From assembly GCF_041146795.1 (NCBI RefSeq), contig NC_135170.1, positions 19,834,033 through 19,898,032 on the forward strand: a stretch of 64,000 nucleotides of DNA, given 5' to 3'. Of the stretch, positions 30,167 through 63,550 are shown piece by piece. The notes under the pieces are model-generated. The model saw only the letters and a list, made by a program, of their open reading frames with translations. It was not told where the DNA came from and ran no database searches. Numbering within the stretch: position 1 is the first letter of the stretch; each line of letters begins with the position of its first letter. Source of the stretch: Maylandia zebra. Taxonomy: Eukaryota > Chordata > Actinopteri > Cichliformes > Cichlidae. The position numbers and the translations under genes are program-made.

Positions 30167-30253
30167 TCAGCGCCTGATTGTGCCGCGCATATCCTCGTAA
30201 ACATCGTTGACCGGGACTTGTCTTTTTTTCACTGTGCTGCGCAAGGGCTTGGT
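30167..30253 (-). CDS. cd7-like: CD7-like 1, exon 4 (cytoplasmic tail)
   Basis: 87 nt including TGA. It encodes TKPLRSTVKKRQVPVNDVYE then DMRGTIRR. The single tyrosine sits in YEDM (YxxM). The acceptor is ctcccag. Confidence 0.82.
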   Translation of the reverse strand, partial: TKPLRSTVKKRQVPVNDVYEDMRGTIRR

Positions 30254-31526
30254 CTGGGAGGGAAAAGACAATGCCGACTGTTATTTGCAGGTCACGTTAA
30301 GCGATTTGATTATTATTCGCTGAATTTTGTGAAGCTTGTTGTTGCTGAGATTTCAGTCTCTCTTCATCTTTGTAACAATACAATTTCTAAAGAGGAATTG
30401 TATGATTATACGACTAATGATGTTTTAACATTTACACACAAACACAGATGCTGTCACATCAAAGCACATACCTTGATGATGATCCATATGAGGAAGACCG
30501 TGAGGACGACAATGAGCACAGCAGCACAGATGACCACAGAGACCAGGACCAGGTCACCCTGGGACTGCCCAGTGCACACAGGTGCTGGTCCGCTTTCTAG
30601 AAATTATATTCATATGTTATTAAATTGTTTTTAGTGTAAAGTTGTAAATATTTCTGTTTCATTAGGATTTTTCCCTCCATCTGTATTTTTTCATTCTGAC
30701 ATCACAAATTTAAAAAAAAAATAATTCAGAGAAATCAAATTTAGAGCCACACAAAAGCAGAAACGCTCCATTTCTGTAACACCAGTCTGTTTAAAAATGA
30801 AACACTTTCTGCCTCTAATATAAATAACAATAAATATAAACAGTCTGATATTGATTGATCACATGAGTGATTAGTTCTACATTTTCCTCTACAATACTTT
30901 GGTGGATTTTGTTGTAAAGCACATGTTGAACTCTTACATGGTTTTTGTATAACATAAATGTCCAGTGGAAAACTTTCAGCTCTATATAAGCTATATATAA
31001 GCTCTAAATAAATTGTTCAGACTCACCTGTCACCACCAGCAGCACAGACCCATTGCCTCTTGAGGTTTTGAGCTTATAGTTGCTGCTCATTTTGTACACG
31101 CACCAGTACGGTCCTGTATCATCCAGGGTCAAGTTTTTGAGGAGAATATCCACATTGGGGACTTGCCCATGAAACTGAAGTCTGTCAGTAAATTTTTGGT
31201 TAATAGTAGATTTTTTTGAATCTGTCAAATAAAAAATGTCCTCCTCCTCATTGAGGCCTCTCTTCAAATACAGCATCTCCTGATTGGAAGCACTTTTGCA
31301 CTGGATGGTGACTTGCTTTCCAACTTTTATCTGTATCACCTTATAACCATCTGCATAAAAAAAGACAACACTTACAATCATATCTCACAATACAGTTTGG
31401 TCAACATGAATGAACTCTTCCTCCTTACATCATTTACTGTAACACACCTGTCTCAGCCTTACCTGCAGCAGTCCTAGCTGTGCCATAGAAGCAAAGGATG
31501 AGAATGAAGAGGCAGACAGCAGACAT
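30167..31526 (-). CDS. cd7-like: CD7-like receptor 1 (IgV, membrane, YEDM tail)
   Basis: Four coding exons (31463-31526, 31027-31350, 30472-30596, 30167-30253) join in phases 1, 1, 0 to give 199 aa. Residues 1-21 are a signal peptide (MSAVCLFILILCFYG...). One IgV domain follows, with cysteines in VTIQC and YWCVY and the DTGPYWC signature. A short stalk with one cysteine leads to a transmembrane segment (VLVSVVICAAVLIVVLTVFL) and a 28-residue basic tail containing VYEDMR. The spacing of YLKRGL, DIFYL, DRLQF and NLTLDDTG closely follows human CD7, and human CD7 also has YEDM in its tail, a p85/PI3-kinase SH2-binding type of motif. Expected role: surface co-receptor on T/NK-lineage cells; ligand in fish unknown. 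Potential N-glycosylation sites are NLT and NGS. All junctions are GT/AG. Family name is inferred; exon structure is directly visible. Confidence 0.85.
30472..30596 (-). CDS. cd7-like: CD7-like 1, exon 3 (stalk and transmembrane)
   Basis: 125 nt, phase 1 in and phase 0 out. It encodes a short stalk (SGPAPVCTGQSQGD) with one free cysteine that could form a dimer bond, then about 22 hydrophobic residues with no charged residue, ending WIIIK. Confidence 0.82.
31027..31350 (-). CDS. cd7-like: CD7-like 1, exon 2 (Ig V domain)
   Basis: 324 nt, phase 1 at both ends as is usual for Ig-domain exons. It carries the complete V-type domain from DGYKVIQIKVGK to SVLLVVTG, with both disulfide cysteines. 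Confidence 0.88.
31463..31526 (-). CDS. cd7-like: CD7-like 1, exon 1 (signal peptide)
   Basis: 64 nt from ATG, encoding MSAVCLFILILCFYGTARTAA and ending in phase 1 at a gtaagg donor. It differs from the gene 2 leader at one base, which changes F to L. Confidence 0.85.
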
Positions 31527-31595
31527 GCTGACAGTCAGTGTCACTGAAGGCTCAGTCAAAGTCTAACTATTCAACAGGAAATGTGTGCATGTTTT

Positions 31596-32279
31596 TACCA
31601 CAGCGCCTGACACACTTCTTGAAAGCAACACGTGACGTAGTGGTAACAGTGAGTGACAATGAAAATATAAGCACCGTGCATTCATTATCACTGGCAGAGC
31701 ATTAAAGCCACCTTTAATCTGAGGTCAAACCAATTTAGCATTTTAAACTTCTCTGGTTTTCAGGCGGGGTATTGTCACTGCTTCATATGTTTTAGGAGCT
31801 TGCAGTTGCTCAAAGGGGGGAAAGATGCAACAGGACAAAGACACCTGACAAACAAATACATTAATATGCTTTTCTGCAAAAATAAAGAGCTTTTATTTAA
31901 TGATAAAATTCCTCAGCTCCTCGGGTCACTATAAATGTGTGTGATCTGAATGAAAACGAAACTGTTCTACATCAAACATTTCTTAAGTATTGTCTCTGGG
32001 TGATATAGACTATGTATGTTTATGCAGTGTGCACAAATCGTGTCAAAGTAGGCCAGGATATTGTCAACAGAGGCTGGAGGGCCATTTTTAGAACACTTAC
32101 ATCGCCCCCTAGCAGCAGAAAAACAGATATTTGGTGTTAACCACAGACTACTGCAGACTGATGTTTATCTTGCGAAGTTTTCACAGCCCTCTGAGTACTT
32201 AGCAGGAACTAAGCTCACTGCATAATTCAGCAGCTCATCAAGCCACCTTTTAAAACACTAACTTGAATTAATTGTTTCC
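31596..32279. other. Upstream flank of CD7-like gene 1
   Basis: Should contain the promoter of CD7-like gene 1. Sequence similarity to gene 2 stops at about 31595, so the two genes have different distal upstream DNA. No open frame or clear core promoter motif was identified. Confidence 0.5.
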
Positions 32280-33130
32280 TGTATGACTGTATCAGTATTG
32301 CACATTGTTGTGGAGGGATTTTGGCCCACTGTTTTTTGCAGTGTAGCTTCAGTTCACTGAGGTTTGTAGACATTTGTTTATGTACAGCAGTCTGAATTTC
32401 CCACTAAGCATTTTGATAAGCTTGAGGTCTGAACTCTTACTGGCTCATTCCAGTAGCACTGTTTTCTTTTTAAGTCATTCTGCTTTACATTCTTCCTACT
32501 GCATGATATCATTTCAGACGAGCCTTAACAGTCAGACACATGGCCTCACATTTGACTCTAGAATACTTTAGTATACAGAAGAGTTCATGGTTGACTCAGA
32601 ACAACCAAACCCAAGTCATCACCCCTTCAACAACATGCTTTGTTAAAGATGCAACTTTGCAAACCTGAGCCATGCTGTCACGTTCATTTTACATAGAAGA
32701 GACCCTGGCAACCATTTAACACAGGTCATGCTACTGTTAGTGCTTGCTTTCTTTGCAGTTTCTCTGAGCATTGCACAGTCTAACCTTGAGATGAATTCAT
32801 TGGGAAATCCACTCCAGGAAAAACAATTAATGTGTGCTTCAGATTTCACTAGTGCTTGCCTGGTGGAAGCATCCTCTTTCATCAGTCTGTCATAAACTCC
32901 CTGCCTGCTTGCAATCAGCCTTTACTTTACTACCATCTTGTGGCTGCAGTTGCTATAGTCACAGGAAGCAGGCTTGTCTTTGACCCTACTGAGATCCACA
33001 GGACAGGGCGTCCCGTCAACAAAGGCTTAAGCTTTTCAAGCTGAGATGCAAGCAGGTTTTTTTCTGCTTGCTTTGCACGTGCACATTGTGGATCAACCTC
33101 TGGTCCTTGATGGGAGACAAGTAGCTGCTG
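32280..33130. mobile_element. DNA-transposon-derived repeat, family shared with 61.4 kb
   Basis: Shares an ordered series of short matches with 61388-62010. Examples are 'catttgtttat' near 32370, 'gaggtctg' near 32423, 'agtcattctg' near 32473 and 'aagtcatcacccct' near 32614. The pattern resembles antisense Tc1/mariner-type transposase DNA, but no termini or frame remain. It is very old. Confidence 0.4.
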
Positions 33131-34026
33131 GCTCTGGGGAGTGTCACAGTTAGTGCAAAAGACTCAAAAGCTCTACAAGACTTTAATTAAGACTTCTGTA
33201 TTCATAACAAGTAAGAATTTATTGCTAATATTACATAATAATATTATCAAAATATTACCAAAGCTGCTGTCCAAACAGTGGTTTTCAAGTCTTTTTCTTT
33301 TTGTCAGTTTAAGGCCGATTACCACAGGGTGGTATGACAGGTAAGTTTGACTGTTCTCACGGGTTGCTGGCACATGTTCACTGAGGTTACTTTCATGGGT
33401 GTATTCCCAGATGTATTTACTGGGAATGCTTTTCTTCTGCTACTCAGGCTCCAGGTACAGACAAAGTCTCTCCAAATCCACATGTGATTATGTCTTCGTG
33501 AATGCAAAAGCAAGAACAAGTGATTAAAACGAGTCTGAAAGCTGAACTTTTACAAGTCATGGAGACAACCCTGTTAAAACCTCTGCAAAAGCTTCCACCC
33601 AGATAGAAATCCACAAATGTTTCTTTTGTTTAATAAGCAGGGAGATTTAAGAACTGCACACATTCATATCCACGGATGACTTCATGGGTATCATAAAGAA
33701 TGAGTTAATGGTAAAAACGCCACTGCAATTACTTTTGTCCCTCAAGTCTGCTTTGGTCAGGTTTCCCCTGCGTCTTTGTTTGAATTCCTGATAAACGATT
33801 TTAAACAAAAATAACAAGAATTTCATGTTTTATTAGAAAAGCAAGCAACTTTAAAAGACAGGGACTGACTCTAAAAGAAAAAAGAAATACATCTAAACAA
33901 TGAAACAGATTCGTGAACAACACAGGGTCAGATACATAATTAAATCAAATGTCCATCTGAACAGGAACATCTTTGGCTGTTTTGTGTTTTTTAAAGTTAC
34001 CTCTAAATCATAAAAACCAAGCTAAG

Positions 34027-34056
34027 TTTTTCTTTTCTTTTCTTTTCTTTTCTTTT
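34027..34056. repeat. (CTTTT)n short tandem repeat
   Basis: About six tandem copies of a TTTTC-type pentamer between repeats in the CD7-like intergenic space. Confidence 0.85.
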
Positions 34057-34309
34057 TTGAGCCACTACCCCAAAAGGCCCAATCTCGATCTGTCCTAAAA
34101 TGAGTCCTTGTGTTTCCTTACTGAACTTATGCATAAACTTTATGCCTTCAGTATGTATCTACAATGTAGAAAGTAGTAAAATAAAGAAAATACATTGAAT
34201 GAGAAAGTGTATCTAAAGTTGGTTTGGTTTCTGGATTATTTAAGATCTCAGACGTTTTCAGCGCATCATGACACGAGTGGTGCACACGGGGACTGACACA
34301 ACCAAGTGG

Positions 34310-34960
34310 TTTCTTGAGTAATGATTTCAACATGTGGCAAACCCCTGACTTTCTCTGTCTATGTGTGGTTTGGATCACATAATTATTATCACTGGTTTTC
34401 GTTTCTACTAGACATGGACCAGCGAACTTGGCTTGCAAGCTGGATCCTACCATAGATAACAACACCAACACTTTCTCTCCAGGCTGGACACTTCTGTTAC
34501 AGTTGTTTTTGTTTTCATCATAATGAGCCTTTATCTTAGTCTGTGCATGCGTCATATTTTCCTGTGCTAACTGACATGCAAAGTGGAGTCTCTCGCGAAG
34601 ACTGCTAACCTAATCGAGAGGAAGTTAAGGAAAGTTATTCCTTGGTCAGAATTTTGGGAGCCCAAAGGTAGAAAACAACTTAATCAGGTCCTTTATAACA
34701 GTTTTGGCTTGTAGTGTACATAATGGGACAGCTTTTGGGAATCTTTTCACTGAGCACCTAGCCATAAATGTTTGAACAATATCAACAACATCATCAAATT
34801 TACACGATCGCTCAAGAGTAACCACACAAATAGGGAACACACTTGACACAGGGAAAACTCTCCCACCAGCCGAGTCATTTCCCAGAATAAATGAGACTCC
34901 TTTAATCAGTAACTGGTAGGTCACGATGACCTTCACTCTATTGCTATGGGTGAATCTCAT
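34310..34960 (-). mobile_element. Ty3/gypsy-type LTR retrotransposon pol fragment
   Basis: Two minus-strand open segments match the end of a gypsy-class pol polyprotein. Segment 34646-34960 includes 'AKTVIKDLIKLFSTFGLPKF', the integrase core entry. Segment 34310-34555 includes 'KAHYDENK' then 'QPGEKVLVLL' and 'AKFAGPCLVE', the post-integrase C-terminal domain. The stretch between them is broken, no LTRs are seen, and the middle of integrase is missing. It is a dead fragment. Similarity is recognised from family motifs, not from a search. Confidence 0.75.
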
Positions 34961-35029
34961 ACCAATACGTCTGAGTTACAAGCAGTTTTATCCAACAATG
35001 GCAGGACAGTGTGCAACATAAATGACTGA

Positions 35030-35880
35030 TGCACACCTGTCAGACCTGTTGAATAGAGAAATCACCTAAACAAAAGCTGTCTGACAAAGTGAGATAGGCT
35101 CAAAGATTGAAAAAATCAACACATCATGCCACAATCTAAAGAAACAAATGAGACACAAAGAGACTGATGTCTATCAGCCTGGAACGGGTTCCAAAGCCAT
35201 TTCTAAGGTTCTGGACTCCAGAGAACTACGGTGAGAGCCATTATGCACAAATGGGAAAGACCTGGAACAGCAGTGCATCGTCCCAGGAGTGGTCAACCTA
35301 CTAAGATTATTCCTCACTGGGCTCAGTTAGGTCAGAGTTCACAATTCAACAATAAGAAAGAGACTGGGCAAAAATGGCATCTACTGGAGGATTCCAAAGA
35401 GAGAACCACCGCTGAGCAAAAACATCAAAGGTTCGTCTCATATTTGCCAAAAAACCATCTTGTTGATCCCCAAGACTTTTGGATATTCTGTGGACTGACG
35501 CTATTTGAACGTTTTGCATCTTGTTACATCCGGTGTCAAATTAACAGCATTTCATAAAAGGAACATCTTGCCACCAGTCAAACATGGTGGTGGTAGTGTG
35601 ATGGTCTGACGCTGCTTTGCTGCTTCAGGATCTCAGTAAGTTGCTGTAATTGATGAAACCATAAATTCTGCTCTCTGCCTGAAAAGATTATTTCTGGCTA
35701 TCAGTTTTAAAAAGAACAAAACAAAAAGGTTTTGGAATGGCTTAATCAAAATCTGGACTTAAATTAGATTGAGATGTTTTGGCATGATCAGCCAGGACCT
35801 TCATAACCAAAAATCATTTCAACGTGGCTGAATTAAAACAATTCCTGCACAATACGGTTACTGTCACATATTTCAGGTTG
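35030..35880 (+). mobile_element. Heavily decayed Tc1-like copy
   Basis: Same family as the element at 27258. Matching landmarks in the same order are the start near 35125 (catgccacaatctaaag), 'gagagccattatgcac', 'gttcgtctcatatttgcc' and 'ggtggtggtagtgtgatgg'. Many stops and indels are present and the terminal repeats are not recognisable. Confidence 0.75.
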
Positions 35881-36099
35881 GTTTGGATGGATTTTTTCCT
35901 TTAATTAAATAGATCATCATTGAAAAACTGCATTAAGTGTTCGTCTTTGTCTATTACTAAAATTTATTTGAGGATCTTAAATAACATACGTGTGAGAAAT
36001 ATGCATAAACCTAAGAAACCAGGAAGTGGGCATACATTTTCACAGTATTGCAGACCACAAAAAACCAAAAAAAACCCAGAGGTCCTCATTCTTTTTAAC

Positions 36100-36525
36100 G
36101 CTGGTCTGTTTAATGCTTGTAGACTTGCTGAAATGAAACTCATTAGATGAAACACAGTGACATCCTCTACAATACTTATATTTTCTTGTAAGCCCCTGTG
36201 TTGAAATCCTACTTGGTTTTTGGACAAAGAAAAGGTCTGGGGGAATATGTTCAGCTCAAAAGGTCTCTCTAGAAGAATAAATGAACGAATGAGGCTCCCC
36301 TGTCACCACGAGGAGCACAGACCCTTAGCTTCTTGTGGTTTTAACTGCATAGTTACTCTCAGTTATTTTGTACATGCACCTGCACAGTCCTGTATCTTTT
36401 AGGGTCATCTTTTTTTTGATGGGGAATTTCCCATGAAGCTGGAGTCTTTCAGTAAATTTTTGGTTAATTGCAGATTTTTGTGTAAATCAGTGAAAAAATG
36501 TCCTCTTCCTCATTGAAGCCTCTCT
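36100..36525 (-). pseudogene. CD7-like gene 3, truncated Ig-exon relic
   Basis: Positions 36295-36525 align, as minus-strand sequence, to the 3' half of the CD7-like Ig exon. Matches include 'cctgtcaccacgagg', 'agttattttgtacatgcacc' and 'gtaaatttttggttaat', and it carries frameshifts and in-frame stops. The lower-coordinate flank from about 36100 is similar to the intron below the Ig exon of gene 1 (for example 'cctctacaatactt'). Similarity ends abruptly at about 36525, so the 5' half of the domain is gone. No leader, transmembrane or tail exon is attached, so no functional product is expected. Confidence 0.78.
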
Positions 36526-36561
36526 GTGAAGGCTCTGCGCTGGCAGACCTTCACAGAGAGG
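36519..36561. repeat. Perfect 14-bp hairpin at the pseudogene breakpoint
   Basis: CCTCTCTGTGAAGG at 36519-36532 and its exact inverted copy at 36548-36561 flank a 15-bp loop. It starts exactly where homology to the CD7-like Ig exon ends. Confidence 0.8.
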
Positions 36562-36779
36562 AGGAGGGACCAAACGCAGACACTTAGAACAAATTATAAT
36601 TTAACAAGAGGTGAGCCTTTATTTGTGGCTGGGGAAAAGGTACAAAACAAAAGGCAGATGGAAAAATGTGGATTCATTGTAACTTTCTGTCAAGTAGTCA
36701 CACTGTTCTGATGTCAAAGGCAATAATGGAGGAGCTACTCATTACTGAGTTCAGATCTCAGATATGTAAAGTCCACAGA

Positions 36780-37060
36780 AAATCGAATTCCTCAAAGAAA
36801 AACCACTTTTGGTTTCACTGCTTTTTTCACAAAGCACATCACGTTGCAAAACCAGACACTGACTTTAGCTGTAGTCAAAATATACGCAAGTGACAATAAA
36901 TATCTTTAACTCCAACTTCCAGGTCAGACACTTCAAATTACAAATGTATGTGATGCACATGGACACAGATTATGTCTCATTACACCTCTAAAATATTATC
37001 ATTGGGTTATTCAGACCATGTTTAGAAAGTCTACAAATCATGCTGGTAGGATGACAGTAG
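36780..37060. repeat. Duplicated block, paralogous to 39495-39770
   Basis: Matching strings in the same order are 'cttttggtttcactgc' (36805 and 39520 areas), 'gttattcagacc' versus 'gttatttatggg', and 'aaatcatgctgg' (about 37035 and 39742). The copy at 39.5 kb lies just upstream of an orphan leader exon. This copy therefore probably marks the former 5' flank of the CD7-like gene 3 relic. Confidence 0.65.
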
Positions 37061-37145
37061 TTCAGTGTCTGAGTCTCCATTTGGGTCAGATTTGATTTCT
37101 TGGTTTAAAAAAAAGCAACCAGATTACATTTTATTCAATTAAATA

Positions 37146-37151
37146 TTTATT
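37146..37151 (-). terminator. Candidate poly(A) signal of CD7-like gene 2
   Basis: AATAAA on the minus strand about 450 bp past the stop codon. It is one of two nearby candidates (the other is near 37131). Confidence 0.4.
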
Positions 37152-37597
37152 TTCCATAAACCACAATTATTCAACTTACATAGTTTCCCCTCATTATTTC
37201 CCCCCACTCACAGTTGCTCTGAGCCCAACAGAGGGACCCAGGCCACAATCTGAAAACCGCTGATTTACAAAATTAATTATCCACAATCATTTATATGTAA
37301 AAAAAAACATGAAATTCAAACCGTGAAAGTGACATGAATTTAAACATGTTCATGTCAGTTCAATAATTAAAAAAAGAAAACAATATTTGAGCTTAACTGT
37401 GATGGAGTTATATATCATCTATTTTCATACAAAGCATTTCTAAATATTCTGCAGCGTCAGTGCCAGTGGTTCTTTTGTTGTACCTTTACGTTATAATTCA
37501 CTGTTACCCATCTTTCTCTGAGACACATACAAGCACCGAGGAGTGAAAATAGACTGAGTTACCACAAAGCTTGATCTTCAGCACTCTGGTGCAGAGT

Positions 37598-37648
37598 TTA
37601 AATGGTCTCATCTCGTCTTCTTCTTGCTTTGTTGTGCAAGCGGTTGTT
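37598..37648 (-). CDS. cd7-like: CD7-like 2, exon 4 (short tail)
   Basis: 51 nt including TAA. The first 36 nt or so align to gene 1 exon 4. After that the gene 1 YEDM region has no counterpart, although the following 3' UTRs are again loosely similar. Confidence 0.75.
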   Translation of the reverse strand, partial: NNRLHNKARRRRDETI

Positions 37649-38940
37649 CTGGAAGAAAAACAGTGAATTGTGGGGCTGTTGTACATTATTATACTATGAT
37701 TATTAATATAGCCACCAATGGTCTGTGCAAGCTCTGTTTGCTGAGGTTCTCTCTTTTCCTCTTTTTTTGTCATTAGTCTATCTTCCTAAAAGATAATGTC
37801 TGGCCAGCAAATTTTTATACATTTGGTGGTCAGACATGTTGTAAAATTGGGCAATGCAAAAAAAGAAAAGAAAAGAAAGAAAAAAATCAGCTTTAATATG
37901 AAATTTGTTTCTGGCATGTTGCTGGTCCAGCTGTACAGTCATTTATTGTAATACGTTATTATTCTATTACAGTGATGTGTGGTTCTACTTCTGTGGTTTT
38001 AGACATGCTTATACCTTGATGACGATCCAGATGAGAGAGGCGATGAGGATGACAATCAGCACACCAGCACAGATCACCACATAGACCAGGACCATGGGCG
38101 TGTCACCCTGTGATTGGTCACACTTAGGCACTGTAGGTGAAGGTCTGTTTTCTAGAAAATATATTTAGATATTACTTCAGTGTTTTTATTGTGAAGTTGC
38201 AATTAAGTCTGTCTGTAAAATATCTGTCCACTTCTATTTTTATGTTCCTACGAATACAGCAAATACATTTTGACAGCACTGCCGGCCACACAAAAGAAGA
38301 AGTGCTCAGTTTCTGTAAAACAATTTAAGAACATGTGTGAACTTACTGACTCACTCACTTGGTGGATTGTTGCACATATTGTACTCCTGCACAGCTTTTG
38401 AATAAAACAAACAAACAAACAAACAAAAAACACTCAGACTCACCTGTCACCACCAGCAGCACAGACCCATTGCCTCTTGAGGTTTTGAGCTCATAGTTGC
38501 CGCTCACTATGTACACGCACCAGTACGGTCCTGTATCATCCAGGGTCAAGTTTTTGAGGAGAATATCCACATTGGGGACTTGCCCATGAAACTGAAGTCT
38601 GTCAGTAAATTTTTGGTTAATAGTAGATTTTGAATCTGTCAAATAAAAAATGTCCTCCTCCTCATTGAGGCCTCTCTTCAAATACAGCATCTCCTGATTG
38701 GAAGCACTTCTGCACTGGATGGTGACTTGCTTTCCAACTTTTATCCGTATCACCTCATAACCATCTGCATAAAAAAAGACAACACTTACAATCATATCTC
38801 ACAATACAGTTTGGTCAACATGAATGAACTCTTCCTCCTTACATCATTAACTGTAACACACCTGTCTCAGCCTTACCTGCAGCAGTCCTAGCTGTGCCAT
38901 AGAGGCAAAGGATGAGAATGAAGAGGCAGACAGCAGACAT
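37598..38940 (-). CDS. cd7-like: CD7-like receptor 2 (IgV, membrane, short tail)
   Basis: Four coding exons (38877-38940, 38444-38764, 38015-38151, 37598-37648) give 190 aa with the same phases as gene 1. The signal peptide differs from gene 1 by F to L. The IgV domain is nearly identical but one lysine shorter in the DSK-STINQ loop, with four changes between the final cysteine and the J-like strand (CVYIVSGNYELK versus CVYKMSSNYKLK). Stalk and transmembrane residues are clearly diverged (TPMVLVYVVICAGVLIVILI). The tail is only about 16 residues (NNRLHNKARRRRDETI), is rich in arginine, and stops before the point where gene 1 has YEDM, so it carries no tyrosine. Likely roles are a decoy, a co-receptor needing a partner, or adhesion. 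All junctions are GT/AG and every exon is intact. Confidence 0.82.
38015..38151 (-). CDS. cd7-like: CD7-like 2, exon 3 (stalk and transmembrane)
   Basis: 137 nt, phase 1 in and phase 0 out; 12 nt longer than in gene 1. The stalk has one cysteine (PKCDQSQGD). The membrane span is uncharged and ends WIVIK. Confidence 0.8.
38444..38764 (-). CDS. cd7-like: CD7-like 2, exon 2 (Ig V domain)
   Basis: 321 nt, phase 1 at both ends. Relative to gene 1 there are seven substitutions and one 3-bp deletion. All seven substitutions alter the amino acid (K/E, Q/R, K/R, K/I, M/V, S/G, K/E). Confidence 0.88.
38877..38940 (-). CDS. cd7-like: CD7-like 2, exon 1 (signal peptide)
   Basis: 64 nt encoding MSAVCLFILILCLYGTARTAA, phase 1 exit. 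The 5' UTR for about 50 bp upstream is identical to that of gene 1. Confidence 0.85.
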
Positions 38941-39400
38941 GCTGACAGTCAGTGTCACTGAAGGCTCAGTCAAAGTCTAACTATTCAACAGGAAATGTGT
39001 GCATGTTTTACCCACACCACCTGACATCATTTCTAAAAATACTTTTCATACACAATAGTGTTTGTGGGTAGATTTGTTACATATGTTGTCAGTGGCAGGT
39101 CATTAAAATAAGACTGAAGATCCGATTGGTTACACTAGAAGTGAAAGTGGATGTTAGGCTGTCTGTGCTTTTCTTTTGTGCTTTTTACTTGTTAATTTTT
39201 TAGAGATTTGGGACATTTTTTAGAGTTTGGAGTAAAGCAAAAGGCCAAAAAAGGAGAAACAGTGTCATGTAGTGATAGAAGCACAAAACAGGTTTCATGC
39301 CATTCTTTCAGTTTTCACACAAGGAAAGCAGTTCACTGGCTCAACACAGCTCTACCCAAAGAAAGGCATTAGGCAACTCTTGAGTAAAAGTCAGTCTTAC

Positions 39401-39467: not shown

Positions 39468-39989
39468 GTTGACACTGATAGTTATGTTTCACACAAAATC
39501 TAATTCCTTAAAGAAAAACTGCTTTTGGTTTCACTGCACGTGACATTGTGAATCGGATATTAACTGGTTTCGCAAGTAAGCAAGAAAAAACAGACCAACT
39601 GATGGTTTTTTTCAATGTGTTAAATTGTGTTATACTGAATTGCTCATACCTCATATTTGACATACATGAACACAGACCATGTTTCATTAAAGCTCTGAAA
39701 AATATCATCATTGAGTTATTTATGGGGGTTTTATTTCTATAAATCATGCTGGAAGGAGTTTAGTGCCCACAGAGGAGCTTGTGCATCGCCCTCTAGTGGC
39801 ACAAAAACTAACTTTGTTAACTTTGGCACAAGCAGTAATGCTGAATTAGAAGTCTTGCTTTCAAAATCTGAAAGTATTGTGCTAGCAAAGACCTGTTGAT
39901 TCATCTGCTGTTCACTGAAATGGTCTCAGAGGATGGGTCGTTGTTAAGAAGTCATTTTTAAGAAAGTGAAACAGGGAGAAAAGGGTGAC

Positions 39990-44355: not shown

Positions 44356-45961
44356 CAGTGGGGCAAAAAAGTATTTAGTCAGCCACCGATTGTGCAAGTT
44401 CCCCCACCTAAAATGATGACAGAGGTCAGTAATTTGCACCAGAGGTACACTTCAACTGTGAGAGACAGAATGTGAAAAAAAAAAATCCATGAATCCACAT
44501 GGTAGGATTTGTAAAGAATTTATTCGTAAATCAGGGTGGAAAATAAGTATTTGGTCAATAACAAAAATACAACTCAATACTTTGTAACATAACCTTTGTT
44601 GGCAATAACAGAGGTCAAACGTTTACTATAGGTCTTTACCAGGTTTGCACACACAGTAGCTGGTATTTTGGCCCATTCCTCCATGCAGATCTTCTCGAGA
44701 GCAGTGATGTTTTGGGGCTGTCGCCGAGCAACACGGACTTTCAACTCCCGCCACAGATTTTCTATGGGGTTGAGGTCTGGAGACTGGCTAGGCCACTCCA
44801 GGACTTTCAAATGCTTCTTACGGAGCCACTCCTTTGTTGCCCGGGCGGTGTGTTTTGGATCATTGTCATGTTGGAAGACCCAGCCTCGTTTCATCTTCAC
44901 AGTTCTCACTGATGGAAGGAGGTTTTGGCTCAAAATCTCACGATACATGGCCCCATTCATTCTGTCCTTAACACGGATCAGTCGTCCTGTCCCCTTGGCA
45001 GAAAAACAGCCCCATAGCATGATGTTTCCACCCCCATGCTTCACAGTAGGTATGGTGTTCTTGGGATGCAACTCAGTATTCTTCTTCCTCCAAACACGAC
45101 GAGTTGAGTTTATACCAAAAAGTTCTACTTTGGTTTCATCTGACCACATGACATTCTCCCAATCCTCTGCTGTATCATCCATGTGCTCTCTGGCAAACTT
45201 CAGACGGGCCTGGACATGCACTGGCTTCAGCAGCGGAACACGTCTGGCACTGCGGGATTTGATTCCCTGCCGTTGTAGTGTGTTACTGATGGTGACCTTT
45301 GTTACTTTGGTCCCAGCTCTCTGCAGGTCATTCACCAGGTCCCCCCGTGTGGTTCTGGGATCTTTGCTCACCGTTCTCATGATCATTTTGACCCCACGGG
45401 ATGAGATCTTGCGTGGAGCCCCAGATCGAGGGAGATCATCAGTGGTCTTGTATGTCTTCCATTTTCTGATGATTGCTCCCACAGTTGATTTTTTCACACC
45501 AAGCTGCTTGCCTATTGTAGATTCACTCTTCCCAGTCTGGTGCAGGTCTACAATACTTTTCCTGGTGTCCTTCGAAAGCTCTTTGGTCTTGGCCATGGCG
45601 GAGTTTGGAGTCTGACTGTTTGAGGCTGTGGACAGGTGTCTTTTATACAGATGATGAGTTCAAACAGGTGCCATTCATACAGGTAACGAGTGGGGGACAG
45701 AAAAGCTTCTTACAGGAGACGTTACAGGTCTGTGAGAGCCAGAGATTTTCCTTGTTTGAGGTGACCAAATACTTATTTTCCACCCTGATTTACGAATAAA
45801 TTCTTTACAAATCCTACCATGTGGATTCATGGATTTTTTTTTCACATTCTGTCTCTCACAGTTGAAGTGTACCTCTGGTGCAAATTACTGACCTCTGTCA
45901 TCATTTTAAGTGGGGGAACTTGCACAATCGGTGGCTGACTAAATACTTTTTTGCCCCACTG
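44356..45961 (-). mobile_element. Full-length Tc1-like transposon with long terminal repeats
   Basis: The 1,606-bp element starts CAGTGGGGCAAAAAAGTA and ends with the exact inverted copy, flanked by TA on both sides (44354-44355, 45962-45963). The inverted repeats are about 200 bp long. Inner copies such as 'aatcctaccatgtggattca' at one end and its complement at the other are nearly identical, so the copy is young. It holds one uninterrupted transposase gene on the minus strand. Confidence 0.95.
44574..45596 (-). CDS. Tc1-like transposase, DD34E, intact
   Basis: 340 aa, uninterrupted, the usual length for the family. It catalyses cut-and-paste transposition into TA sites in the nucleus. The N-terminus has paired helix-turn-helix regions ([20 protein letters not shown] around 17-36) and an AT-hook/GRPR-like linker (PRSGAPRK around 55-62). 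The catalytic triad is visible: first D in [12 protein letters not shown], second D in [11 protein letters not shown], and E in [14 protein letters not shown], 34 residues after the second D. The start was chosen as the first ATG ([13 protein letters not shown]), typical of the family. The plus-strand frame of about 315 codons over the same DNA is an antisense shadow. Whether the protein is active cannot be judged by eye, but no lesion is visible. Confidence 0.93.
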
Positions 45962-46021: not shown

Positions 46022-46800
46022 AATTCCCCTCTTGCACTGAGTGCTCCGATTACCACTGGGCTCACTGTTGCCTTCACCATCCACATCTCCTTGAGCTCTT
46101 CTCTCAGCTCTTGGTACTTTTCGAGCTTCTAATCGTCCTTTTTCTCTGATGTTGCTATCACTTGGTATCACCACATATACCATGACAGCTGTCTTCCTCG
46201 GCTTGTCTTCCACTTCTATGTCCAGGTGGTTAGCCATCACCACTTTGTCCATCTGGCTCTGTCATTCTTAACCACCCTAGGGCGCGTCTCCCATTTTGAC
46301 CTCGGGACTTCCAGGCCATACGCAGTACAGATGTTTCTGTATACTATGCCGGCCTTTGCCTGCTAGCATCTTGCACCCTGCTGTGTTGTGCTGAATTGTC
46401 TCAGGGGCATCTTTACACAGCCTGCACCTGGGGTCTTGCTTGGTGTGATAGACCCCAGCCTCTATGGATCTTGTGCTCAGAGCTTGTTTCTGTGCTGCCG
46501 TGATTATTGCCTCTGTGCTGTCTTTCAGTCCAGCTTTGTCCAGCCATTGGAACGATTTCTGGATCTCAGTCACTGATGTATTTGACAGCACATACCGTGC
46601 ATGGACGTGTCCTTACATGATGGTCCTTCTCCTTGCTCCGCTTCGGTCTCAGGTTTCTGCTGCCTTATCTATTCACTGAAAAAGTGGTCATCTTCCTCAT
46701 GTCCTCATGGATGTTCGTTGTCTCGTCCTGGATGGTAGTTCTGACACTCACCAGTCCTCTGCCTCCTTTCCGCTTATCGTACAGTCACGGGCTGCTAGAC
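46022..46800 (-). mobile_element. Non-LTR retrotransposon (LINE) 3' fragment
   Basis: The minus strand encodes degraded C-terminal reverse-transcriptase polyprotein pieces. These include 'KGGRGLVSVRTTIQDETT' near 46780-46720 and 'QWLDKAGLKDSTEAIITAAQ' near 46545-46485. Further on are 'DPRCRLCKDAPETIQHNTAG' with a C-C-H-C knuckle near 46430-46375, and 'KTAVMVYVVIPSDSN' near 46195. Frameshifts separate them. This is the region after the polymerase domain. The fragment starts about 60 bp past the right end of the intact Tc1-like element. Confidence 0.78.
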
Positions 46801-60214: not shown

Positions 60215-62997
60215 TATATACATATACACACACACACAATATCATCATGGGAAGTGCATGAAGTATGTTTAACTTATTGACACGGCCTCACCTGTGCTGG
60301 TGTGTCTGTCTCGTTTATTGGCTGCCCGTCAAATCTGAACCTGATTTGCCTCATTGACAGTCCCTGAAAAGAGAAACGTGTAAAATCTTGTTGTTAATCT
60401 CATGTGAAGCTCTGTATAGGCTAACGTGTACAAAATAAAAATGCAGACAATAATATACTCATGCTAAAGATAAGGCAGCTGAGGTTTGAGAGACATAGAA
60501 AAAAAACATGTCTTGCTGTGAAGCAGAAATGAAGAAATAATGATAACCATCTGGTTCTGGCTGTACTTTAGAAAAAAAGAGCTGTATGACAAACATCTCT
60601 TTTACCCTGATGGGAGTCCAAGGAACAGATAACACCGTGATTGGGTTTCCATTCTTCCACAGAGTTGAACCCTTATTTGACTTTCAAATAAAAAGGATCT
60701 CAGACCTCGTGTTCTATTACATATTTCTTTTACTTTTGTGCACAGCTCTTTTAGAAAACCTTGGGAATTGCTTTTGTAGCAATGCAAACACAGCTGCAAT
60801 TAATAGAGAACCAGAGTGATGCTCAGTGCAGTGCTAATTCATACAAAAGTCAAAATTCCTGCATTCCATTACAGCAAGTAGCTTGGCAGAGAACAGCTTA
60901 AAATCTGAGCTAATCCATAACAGCAGGAGGAAAAGATTAGATGTCTTCTGCGATTACTGTGAAATCACAGATGACGATAAGGGAGGTTCATTTAAAGGAT
61001 GCAAGAACCACGTAAAATGTTAAAGCTATGCTATCAAGTAGGTATTTGCATTAAAGCTGTAGACCCTAACTGCATTTGAGGAGGAAGAGAAGAACTGCAA
61101 CGGAAACTTTTTCAAGGAAAAGTGAAACAACAGCCGTGATGAGTTACTGTCTGATGGATGGATGGACGGATCGTTTAGCACGTGATGTGTCTGTTAAATG
61201 TGATTAAAGTATTTGAGACTCGAGGACAGCTAAGTATGTTCTCTGTCCAACACACATACATTTGGCCTAACAGTAAATTTCTACAAACAAGTGGAATATT
61301 CGATTTAACTAACAAGAACACCCCATGATTCAAGCTTGTAGAACCAACTAAATCATATTCTGTATAACTTTTATCAGTATTTACCAGGTGACTGAGGCTT
61401 GCAAGCATTTGTTTATCCTGCCACAGCATTTAAACCAGGCTGAGGTCTGGACTTTGAGTGGGTCATTGCAACACCTTGAGTCTTTTCTTTTTCAGTCATT
61501 CTGTTGTACAGTTGCTGACGTGCTTGGGATCACTGTCCTGTTGCGGGATTTAATTTTGGCCAAGCTTTAGCTGTCAGACAAACGGCCTGTGGCTCTGTGG
61601 CTTAAAAACAAACCCAAATCATGACCCCTCCACCTCCGTGCTTAATAGTTGGTATCAGGTGTTTGTACCGATATGCTGTGTTCGGTTCTCACCAAACGTC
61701 TCTGTTCATTACGGCCAAAAACCTCTTCTTTGCTCTCCTCTGTCCAAAGGACATTGTTCTACATGTGTTGTTGTTTGTGCAGAAGCAACTTTGCAAATTG
61801 AAGCTGTGCTGCGTTGTTCTTTTTAGAACCTGGTAACCCTTCCAAACAAGTCACACTTGTTCAGTCTTTTTCTAACATTTAACATCCTAACTGAGGCTCT
61901 TGGGTCATTTTGCTATTTCTCTCAGGACTGCAAGGTTTGACCTTGACCTGAACTTGCCTGTAGATCCACTTCTGGGATTGTGGCATTGTGTTACCACACA
62001 GCTGAATACTCCAGATCTACAACCTACAAATTTCTGCTTGTATAGAGGTGCTCACACGCGCTGATAATCAGTTAATCAAATACAAGTTGATTAGTAACAC
62101 CTGGCTGCTACTTGTCCCCTTGATCCCTATTGAAGTAGTAAAGGTGTACTTAGTTTTCCAGAGGATCGCACAGAGTCCTATGAAAACCTTTTTAAAATGC
62201 CTGCATATATTTTATGGTAAATGGGATTTTTAAGATGCCCTGGCATAACTGCTTGTTTTGGCATCTAGAATACAAACATATAATCTGCAGTCATTACATG
62301 CATGTGTGAAAAGTGTCAAAGAATTGAAAGTAAATGGTTTAATTGTATCCTATTCGGTTGTAAAACACGATTAACTGTGTGCAAACTTCAAAGTCTGGCC
62401 TCTAAAACATTAAGTAACTCCAGTAATGATTTCCTTATGATGTTAAAACAGCATAACCTGTAAGCACTTGCAAGCCTTGCTCCACAGAGGGTAGGCAACT
62501 CTCCCAGTAGATGTAATTTTATACACCCGTCTCTTTTTGTAAATGGTGTGCAGCGATGCAGGGAAAAGGTCAATTAAAAGAAAGCAGGATTATTGTTAAT
62601 AACATCTAAACATGTTATTTAGAATACAATCCAACAGCTAACTATCAATTACATCAAGTGTATATATGATTAGCAGCAGAGGTGTACAGAGGAACACTCG
62701 ACAGATATTTCTGGGGAAATAATACTTCAAGTCGAGTTCCCCTCATGTGGTGAGAACAGAAAATAACAAGAAGTCTATTTAACTGTAGCTACACTCTGCT
62801 TATAAAGATCTATGCCCACTCAGGAAATGATCAGTGTTAGTGTAATGCCTCAGGGCCATAATCACCTGTCTCTCGCAGTAGGCCTTCATGAGTTTGATGA
62901 GCGGTGTGTGTCTTTTGATCTTGAACTGCACTACAGATCCATCCTGACCCGCTACCTTCAGGTTTATGTGTTCATTGTTTTCTGTCTTCACTGATTC
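59269..62997 (-). CDS. sumo2: SUMO2 (small ubiquitin-like modifier), 5' end missing
   Basis: Three coding exons (62866-62997, 60292-60363, 59269-59331) join in phase 0 to 88 aa. With the usual seven-residue first exon, which lies beyond the right edge, the total is about 95 aa, the same as human SUMO2. The ubiquitin-like beta-grasp fold, the SIM-binding strand ([12 protein letters not shown]) and QQTGG are present. The protein is attached to lysines of target proteins through the E1 SAE1/UBA2, UBC9 and E3 ligases, and SENP proteases mature the C-terminus after GG. The acceptor lysine for poly-SUMO chains lies in VKTE near the start. SUMO2 rather than SUMO3 is chosen because JPT1 is the direct neighbour, as in human. 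Two oddities are I for the usual S in HTPLSKL and the tail RI after GG. Confidence 0.93.
59820..60245. repeat. Dispersed repeat with (TA)n/(CA)n tail in a SUMO2 intron
   Basis: Starts with 'aaatttttatttgtcacgta' and 'cagtgaaatgctta', a widespread percomorph repeat head. It continues with degenerate tandem A-rich units ('aaatataaaa' forms) and ends in (TA)n plus (CA)n at about 60183-60238. Confidence 0.6.
60292..60363 (-). CDS. sumo2: SUMO2 coding exon 3
   Basis: 72 nt, 24 codons, [20 protein letters not shown] then TPAQ, identical to the human residues. Acceptor tttcag, donor gtgagg. Confidence 0.94.
61388..62240. mobile_element. DNA-transposon-derived repeat in a SUMO2 intron
   Basis: Same family as 32280-33130 by ordered short matches ('gaggtctgga', 'agtcattctg', 'aaatcatgacccctcc'). 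It resembles antisense Tc1/mariner transposase DNA ('cttgggatcactgtcctgtt' near 61525). No intact ends or frame. Confidence 0.45.
62866..62997 (-). CDS. sumo2: SUMO2 coding exon 2
   Basis: 132 nt, 44 codons, [20 protein letters not shown] to KAYCERQ. Acceptor ccctcag, donor gtgatt. Confidence 0.93.
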
Positions 62998-62999
62998 CT

Positions 63000-63550
63000 G
63001 AGGGATAGAAGCACAGATAGAAACACAGTGAAGGAACAAAAGAAATGACTTTGACTAACCAGAACAACACAGTAGTTACAGGTTTGCAGGGGGAAAGCTC
63101 TGCACGGTATTTTCTGTTATTATTACATGCGTAATTTCAGTCCCTTTAGTGCCTCCGGTGGCCTTTTAATTTTGCAGTAGCGTGATGAAATAATGAATTC
63201 AGACTTAAACAGCTCACCAGGTGGCTAGGGAAGGATATTGGCAAGAGCTTATTAATATCCATGACATTATCAGTTGTGCTAATTCTTTATTGATTCTTGA
63301 TCAATTTTCTTTGGGAGGAAAAAAGCAGGCAAATGTCAGTATCAACCCAGCCGTGTCATTATCGCCAAAACAGAGTAGGAAAAGACTGAGCAGCACAAAA
63401 GCAGCACTGCTATGAGTTTGACTTCACTTTCGCAATGTGTAACTGCCAGAAAGATATGTCAGCATCCATAAAAGGAAGGTTGATGAGCCCAAAGGTGTAA
63501 AATTCCCAGGACTTTTGCGAATTTGCATATTTTGAAATTGTTTAGATATA
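63000..63550. other. SUMO2 intron 1, visible part
   Basis: No coding exon was found. The SUMO2 first exon (about seven codons) was searched for between 63000 and 64000 and is not present, so it must lie further right. Confidence 0.6.

Follow-up and report, generated by a model that had tools for sequence, protein, structure and literature searches.

CD7 is a widely used marker of T and natural killer (NK) cells and a target for therapy. It recruits PI3K via the motif YEDM, according to a passage in a review (PMC6099181) whose cited reference names type II phosphatidylinositol-4 kinase in its title. Its mammalian ligand, SECTM1, is reported in the relevant part of the source to occur in placental mammals only (PMC4603632), so that the ligand in fish would be something else, or one that is unrecognised. 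In zebrafish, a CD7-related Ig protein (ENSDARG00000098787) appears among T-cell-specific genes in one paper (PMC5340972), and cd7al is named as a T-cell gene in a passage of another (PMC11972081). Receptors that share an ectodomain are also described elsewhere: for Siglec-11 and Siglec-16, part of the relevant paper states that a similar glycan preference has been shown (PMC5701461). Here we describe two CD7-like genes, gene 1 and gene 2, on the minus strand of a 64,000-nucleotide stretch of Maylandia zebra DNA (C4:19834033-19898032, called the window; all positions without a contig name refer to it). As judged from the sequence, gene 1 is most likely a PI3K-coupled receptor of the CD7 type, and gene 2 either a competitor uncoupled from PI3K or a copy in decay.

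Two genes with a common leader and IgV segment

Each gene has four coding exons, and the outer coding limits of the pair fall at exactly 30167 and 38940. All introns (three per gene) are of the GT..AG type, and their phases, 1, 1 and 0, agree between the genes. The spliced product of gene 1 has 199 residues and a cytoplasmic tail of 28 residues containing YEDM (TKPLRSTVKKRQVPVNDVYEDMRGTIRR). That of gene 2 has 190 residues and ends in a 16-residue tail (NNRLHNKARRRRDETI) with five arginines, no tyrosine and hence neither YEDM nor any YxxM. Neither transmembrane helix contains Lys, Arg, Asp or Glu (gene 2: MVLVYVVICAGVLIVILIASLIWIVI). A first-pass annotation, made from the sequence alone, had proposed two genes with intact leader, IgV, transmembrane and tail exons and with just these tails, and joining the exons reproduced both the gene structures and the tails. 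It had also called the ectodomains near-identical, and they differ by eight residues and one codon deletion over 129 codons. The exons and the segment discussed below are as follows (splice scores are in bits and use frequencies from a consensus table).

31526-31463, minus strand: gene 1 leader exon, coding part (MSAVCLFILILCFYGTARTAA); donor CAG/GTAAGG, 11.4 bits
31350-31027, minus strand: gene 1 IgV exon; whole protein matches Pfam V-set at 4.1e-9, best PDB match human CD7 at 4.2e-9
30596-30472, minus strand: gene 1 stalk and transmembrane exon; one stalk Cys, helix without charged residue
30253-30167, minus strand: gene 1 tail exon, 28 residues and stop; YEDM codons at 30188-30199 (counted by hand)
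38940-38877, minus strand: gene 2 leader exon, coding part, from the spliced gene model
38764-38444, minus strand: gene 2 IgV exon; Pfam V-set 5.4e-9
38151-38015, minus strand: gene 2 stalk and transmembrane exon; weak donor AAG/GTATAA, 4.2 bits, and a cryptic donor after 38065, 6.4 bits
37648-37598, minus strand: gene 2 tail exon, 16 residues and stop, no tyrosine; start homologous to the gene 1 tail exon
31017-31595, minus strand: homogenised segment, gene 1 copy; agrees with gene 2 at 567 of 576 aligned bases
38434-39009, minus strand: homogenised segment, gene 2 copy; edges taken from the list of differences

The homogenised segment comprises 69 bases ahead of the ATG, the leader, intron 1, the IgV exon and ten bases at the start of intron 2. 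It is 98.4% identical at the DNA level and its edges are sharp. Outside it, identity over aligned bases is lower both in the introns (intron 2, 65%; intron 3, 44%) and in the exons (transmembrane, 78%; tail, 36%); introns 2 and 3 and the tails align poorly, and the 5' flanks cannot be aligned at all. The contrast is also seen in the number of synonymous substitutions per synonymous site (dS). The leader and IgV exons carry no synonymous and eight nonsynonymous changes (dS 0), compared with a dS of 0.40 and a nonsynonymous counterpart (dN) of 0.19 in the stalk and transmembrane exon. Synonymous differences thus number 0 at 85 sites in the former and about 10 at 32 in the latter (Fisher 7e-7). 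A 40-base piece of the segment, allowing at most three mismatches, occurs twice in the window and in none of 100 shuffles.

These comparisons show, at the level of sequence, an old duplicate pair that has long been diverged. They also strongly support the view that the leader and IgV segment, of about 576 bases, was copied by gene conversion or unequal exchange after that long divergence: because dS is 0 in the leader and IgV exons and 0.40 in the stalk and transmembrane exon, the ectodomain would have been exchanged long after the genes split. A recent duplication of the whole gene was rejected, since stalk, transmembrane region, tail, introns 2 and 3 and 5' flank have all diverged. Constraint on codons was likewise rejected as the source of the IgV identity in this pair, as intron 1 is identical at 111 of 112 positions.

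Three further features lie close to gene 2.

39467-39402, minus strand: extra leader-like exon (MSVVWLQLITLLCLSFGAPSRA), phase 1; donor CAG/GTAAGA, 11.0 bits
36531-36301, minus strand: IgV pseudogene remnant with two stops; 49% amino acid identity to gene 1 (55% over a shorter stretch)
39490-39757, minus strand: 5' flank of gene 2 and the extra leader; two pieces match the pseudogene 5' flank at 36774-37051

The two matching pieces of flank are 89.6% identical over 48 bases and 75.3% over 97. The extra exon is solitary and 5' of gene 2, and its phase permits joining to the gene 2 IgV exon; it is possible that it is the original or an alternative first exon of this gene. The retention here of a different leader-like exon and of a pseudogene-like 5' flank suggests that gene 2 is the likelier recipient of the segment.

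We propose the following explanation, to which we give a probability of roughly 0.45. Tandem CD7-like genes diverged over a long time, after which some 576 bases with the leader and IgV would have passed between them, more probably into gene 2. By homology to CD7, gene 1 would signal once its YEDM is phosphorylated and PI3K is recruited. Gene 2 would bind at the cell surface without recruiting SH2 domains by a tail tyrosine and, if expressed, would be limited to adhesion or to competition for the ligand, and may thereby damp the action of gene 1; its binding may differ from that of gene 1 through changes in a loop described below.

Several points weigh against this proposal. The exon-3 donor of gene 2 scores 4.2 bits, whereas that of gene 1 reaches 9.6 and those of all four genes of a related cluster on contig C6 (described below) reach 10.0-12.3; the absent motif and this weak donor would also fit simple decay. 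The material is one genome, which settles neither fixation nor the direction of conversion. In a tree of IgV domains (25 of the 38 loci found by the searches, the V-set locus L047 described below, and 79 residues of human CD7, with the partial L035 dropped and 12 loci excluded), forks are weak, and human CD7 and the C4 and C6 rows form one clade in 0 of 200 bootstraps. The AlphaFold model of the gene 1 IgV domain has a mean predicted local distance difference test score (pLDDT) of 39.9 and is unusable. Finally, the effects of mouse SECTM1A and SECTM1B on T cells are reported, in the part of the paper that deals with them, to be independent of CD7 (PMC3769348), and for this reason the signal from ligand to CD7 is unsettled even in mammals.

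The C6 cluster, the tail of gene 2 and the rival explanations

A whole-genome search (962 Mb, as for all such searches here) with the gene 1 IgV domain, scoring the best 150 of 182 candidates, returned the two genes, then the pseudogene, and then copies on contig C6 at 31-32%. These belong to a cluster at C6:29343458-29517192 (loci L048-L051) with at least four CD7-like genes plus fragments. Four of its V exons are free of stops, one has a stop and one is partial; the last two were excluded from all counts, and the comparisons cover V, transmembrane and tail exons. VYEVM is present in the tails of all four C6 genes with these three exons. YxxM is therefore found in five of the six CD7-like genes with V, transmembrane and tail exons, gene 2 being the exception (L047, a possible member of the family, is not in this count).

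In all six pairs that can be drawn from the four C6 genes, dS is lower in V than in the transmembrane exon and in the tail, although the pairs are not independent and the numbers of sites are small. Between L048 and L049, dS is 0.083 in V, 0.60 in the transmembrane exon and 1.17 in the tail (Fisher for V against the other two together, 6e-7). Between L050 and L051 it is 0.061 in V and 0.40 in the tail, the transmembrane value being saturated and unreliable (Fisher, same comparison, 5e-9). The identity of L048 and L049 outside the V exon is about 45-60%, except for an 82% patch 200-300 bases upstream, and that of L050 and L051 drops immediately upstream and about 200 bases downstream of the V exon. 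Both pairs, then, have homogenised V exons, unlike introns and VYEVM in each partner. Homogenisation of the IgV exon is best seen as a family-wide habit, which would also operate between partners that bear the motif; since such partners homogenise likewise, a shared ectodomain alone is no evidence for pairing of a signalling receptor with a decoy.

The C4 pair could reflect ordinary concerted evolution, in which nearby IgV exons convert one another, the tails differ by chance and the two genes do not work as a pair. The low V dS throughout the C6 cluster, the motif kept by both partners in its closest pairs and the steep fall in identity beyond their V exons speak for such a process. Set against it, the C4 segment takes in the leader and spares stalk, transmembrane region and tail, as in Siglec-11/16 according to part of the source (PMC5701461). 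In addition, the changes since the exchange fall at eight of 299 nonsynonymous sites and one of 276 neutral sites (Fisher 0.039), hinting at selection. Of the nine base changes, read from gene 1 to gene 2, seven are A-to-G or T-to-C, and biased conversion could be an alternative source of the excess. We consider concerted evolution a real possibility, at odds that fall short of even.

The tail of gene 2 bears on a second rival. Its exon is the same exon as that of gene 1 with the motif absent, since the local alignment of the two tail exons with their 3' stretches scores 74, above all of 1000 shuffles (best 36). At the start of the exons, 25 of the first 36 bases are identical. Beyond this start, the gene 2 exon shows gaps opposite the YEDM region of gene 1, although the alignment inside these gaps is uncertain. 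A MAFFT alignment of the whole exons has 31 of 87 positions identical. BLASTN (E up to 0.01) gave no match between the tail exons of the pair, each taken with its 3' stretch. Because YxxM is present in gene 1 and in each of the four C6 genes that have a tail exon, its loss in gene 2 looks derived, and probably is. The tail split of the first-pass annotation is real at the level of sequence, subject to the weak donor of gene 2, and acquires a probable direction.

Gene 2 may be read as a gene in decay, which has lost its motif and its splice strength and is unexpressed, or gives a tailless, unstable or secreted product. The tail exon is less certain than that of gene 1 because of the weak exon-3 donor: 8.9% of the 4080 GT dinucleotides on the minus strand of the window score at least as well, and the cryptic donor within the transmembrane exon outscores it. 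A pseudogene also adjoins gene 2. Retention of intron 3 would truncate the protein one residue past the transmembrane exon (...IVIKV*); splicing at the cryptic donor would remove half of the helix and give the end EQPLAQQSKKKTR. Neither product has a tyrosine motif. A further exon that might supply one was sought between 38014 and 31600, that is, down to gene 1, and no acceptor-led frame of phase 0 with YxxM was found. Decay is countered by the frame, which is open over four exons with matching phases and an uncharged helix, by the ratio of dN to dS below 1 in the stalk and transmembrane exon (to which the gene 1 lineage also contributes), and by an AATAAA about 450 bases 3' of the gene 2 stop. 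On balance decay seems somewhat unlikely.

A third possibility is that gene 2 is no decoy for the ligand of gene 1 but a receptor with altered binding. Of the seven base differences in IgV, four are packed into 18 bases (31092-31075; simulation p 0.013), in a loop resembling complementarity-determining region 3 (CDR3), so that the ectodomains differ where a ligand might bind. The pseudogene, read by eye, carries the gene 1 base at three of these four sites, for which reason gene 2 looks derived in the loop, but it has the gene 2 base at the fourth. In a single genome the cluster of differences could be an unconverted island of an older state, and we judge altered binding distinctly unlikely. 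It is highly improbable, and was rejected, that gene 2 is the activating member of a classical pair of inhibitory and activating receptors, acting through a DAP12-type adaptor: its short motif-free tail recalls many adaptor-coupled receptors, but neither helix is charged and gene 1 has YxxM rather than an immunoreceptor tyrosine-based inhibitory motif (ITIM).

The first-pass annotation had suggested that the locus may be a paired signalling and decoy system. The near-identical ectodomains and split tails that it relied on stand. The pairing itself is possible, with the motif-keeping C6 pairs, which are homogenised too, the weak donor and the uncharged helices as grounds for caution. The strongest form of the idea would be a true paired CD7 of fish, in which conversion keeps refreshing the ectodomain onto a motif-less surface decoy that tracks an evolving ligand, and this we think rather unlikely. 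With an old tandem pair whose ectodomain was homogenised later, and with similar events in the C6 cluster, the history of the locus is of more interest than the annotation had it, and its function is less certain.

Probable kinship with CD7 and the surroundings of the pair

The kinship with CD7 is based on reciprocal best hits. The sequence search of the PDB with the gene 1 IgV domain gave human CD7 (PDB 12hp) at 4.2e-9, followed by a match at 1.4e-5; the matches after CD7 are to polymeric Ig receptor and antibody domains, and the best 60 of 261 include neither a CD28 nor a CTLA4 chain. Conversely, 79 residues of human CD7 searched against the whole genome found gene 1 (4.9e-7), gene 2 (6.7e-6) and then a V-set exon on contig C21 (4.5e-5). 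The tandem pair probably includes the fish counterpart of CD7. The CD7-like identity given in the first-pass annotation is supported by these hits and by the YEDM tail, with the weak forks of the tree noted above, and its statement that the human CD7 tail carries YEDM is made in the review too (PMC6099181, in part).

As a weak test, since the rows were picked by similarity, the strand-C position was compared by eye: it is Leu in eight of the 27 tree rows (human CD7, both genes, the four C6 genes and L047) and Trp in the remaining 19. L047 is a V-set exon at C4:19683145-19683381, about 150 kb before the window, with 41% identity to human CD7 over 73 residues. It has a CD7-like strand C and a possible transmembrane exon (RPCHCSPSYAPLLWTIFTAAGLLLLTLTWLAIQK) 0.4 kb further on; no convincing YxxM tail motif was found downstream of it.

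NUP85 matches lie on contig C4 5.0-8.5 kb past the end of the window, a SUMO-like exon is present at 62800-63054 (Rad60-SLD 7e-9), presumably SUMO2, and a fructosamine kinase is encoded on the same contig at 25.1 Mb. We take all three to map to human 17q25, like CD7.

The window also contains a transposase frame of Tc1/Sleeping Beauty type at 44574-45659, with 361 residues from stop to stop (HTH_SB, HTH_Tnp_Tc3_2 and DDE_3). Weak retroelement remnants are seen at 34148-34609 (integrase p58 C-terminal domain, 1.5e-4) and 46277-46612 (reverse-transcriptase zinc-binding domain, 3e-4), both below the cut-off.

Comparison with known systems

Among the papers listed by literature searches, none dealt with a fish CD7 pair or with conversion of a CD7 ectodomain; text matches to CD7 in the portions concerned of PMC11759298, PMC9365674 and PMC8780861 were to CD79 or CD74 only. 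The closest described protein is human CD7, the best PDB match of gene 1, which has the same single IgV domain, transmembrane helix and short YEDM tail (as a passage of PMC6099181 describes it) and, by eye, the same Leu in place of the strand-C Trp. It differs in that the fish has two genes and a pseudogene at this locus, plus the C6 cluster. The CD7-related protein and cd7al of zebrafish, names that possibly denote one gene, are likewise CD7-related fish products, known here by description only, and the passages on them mention neither paired genes with split tails nor conversion of an ectodomain (PMC5340972, PMC11972081). CD28H and CD28X share a cytoplasmic YEDM motif, according to part of PMC11599192. 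They belong to the CD28 family, from which gene 1 is set apart by its best PDB match, CD7.

A family of CD7-like genes in fish, with repeated homogenisation of the ectodomain and one member without the motif, would be a natural experiment on what the ectodomain binds, and the pair poses the question whether loss of YxxM turns a costimulator into a competitor. It is also a warning that a near-identical ectodomain should not by itself be read as a decoy pair.

Among paired receptors, a likeness exists to Siglec-11 and Siglec-16, whose ectodomain is homogenised by gene conversion and of which one is inhibitory and one activating (PMC5701461, in part). CD300A and CD300C are also paired, with shared ligands and opposite signals, according to part of PMC12447643. 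In both of these systems the split is between inhibition and activation. If the CD7-like genes of fish were truly paired, this would be a paired CD7 that is split instead between a PI3K-type motif and none.

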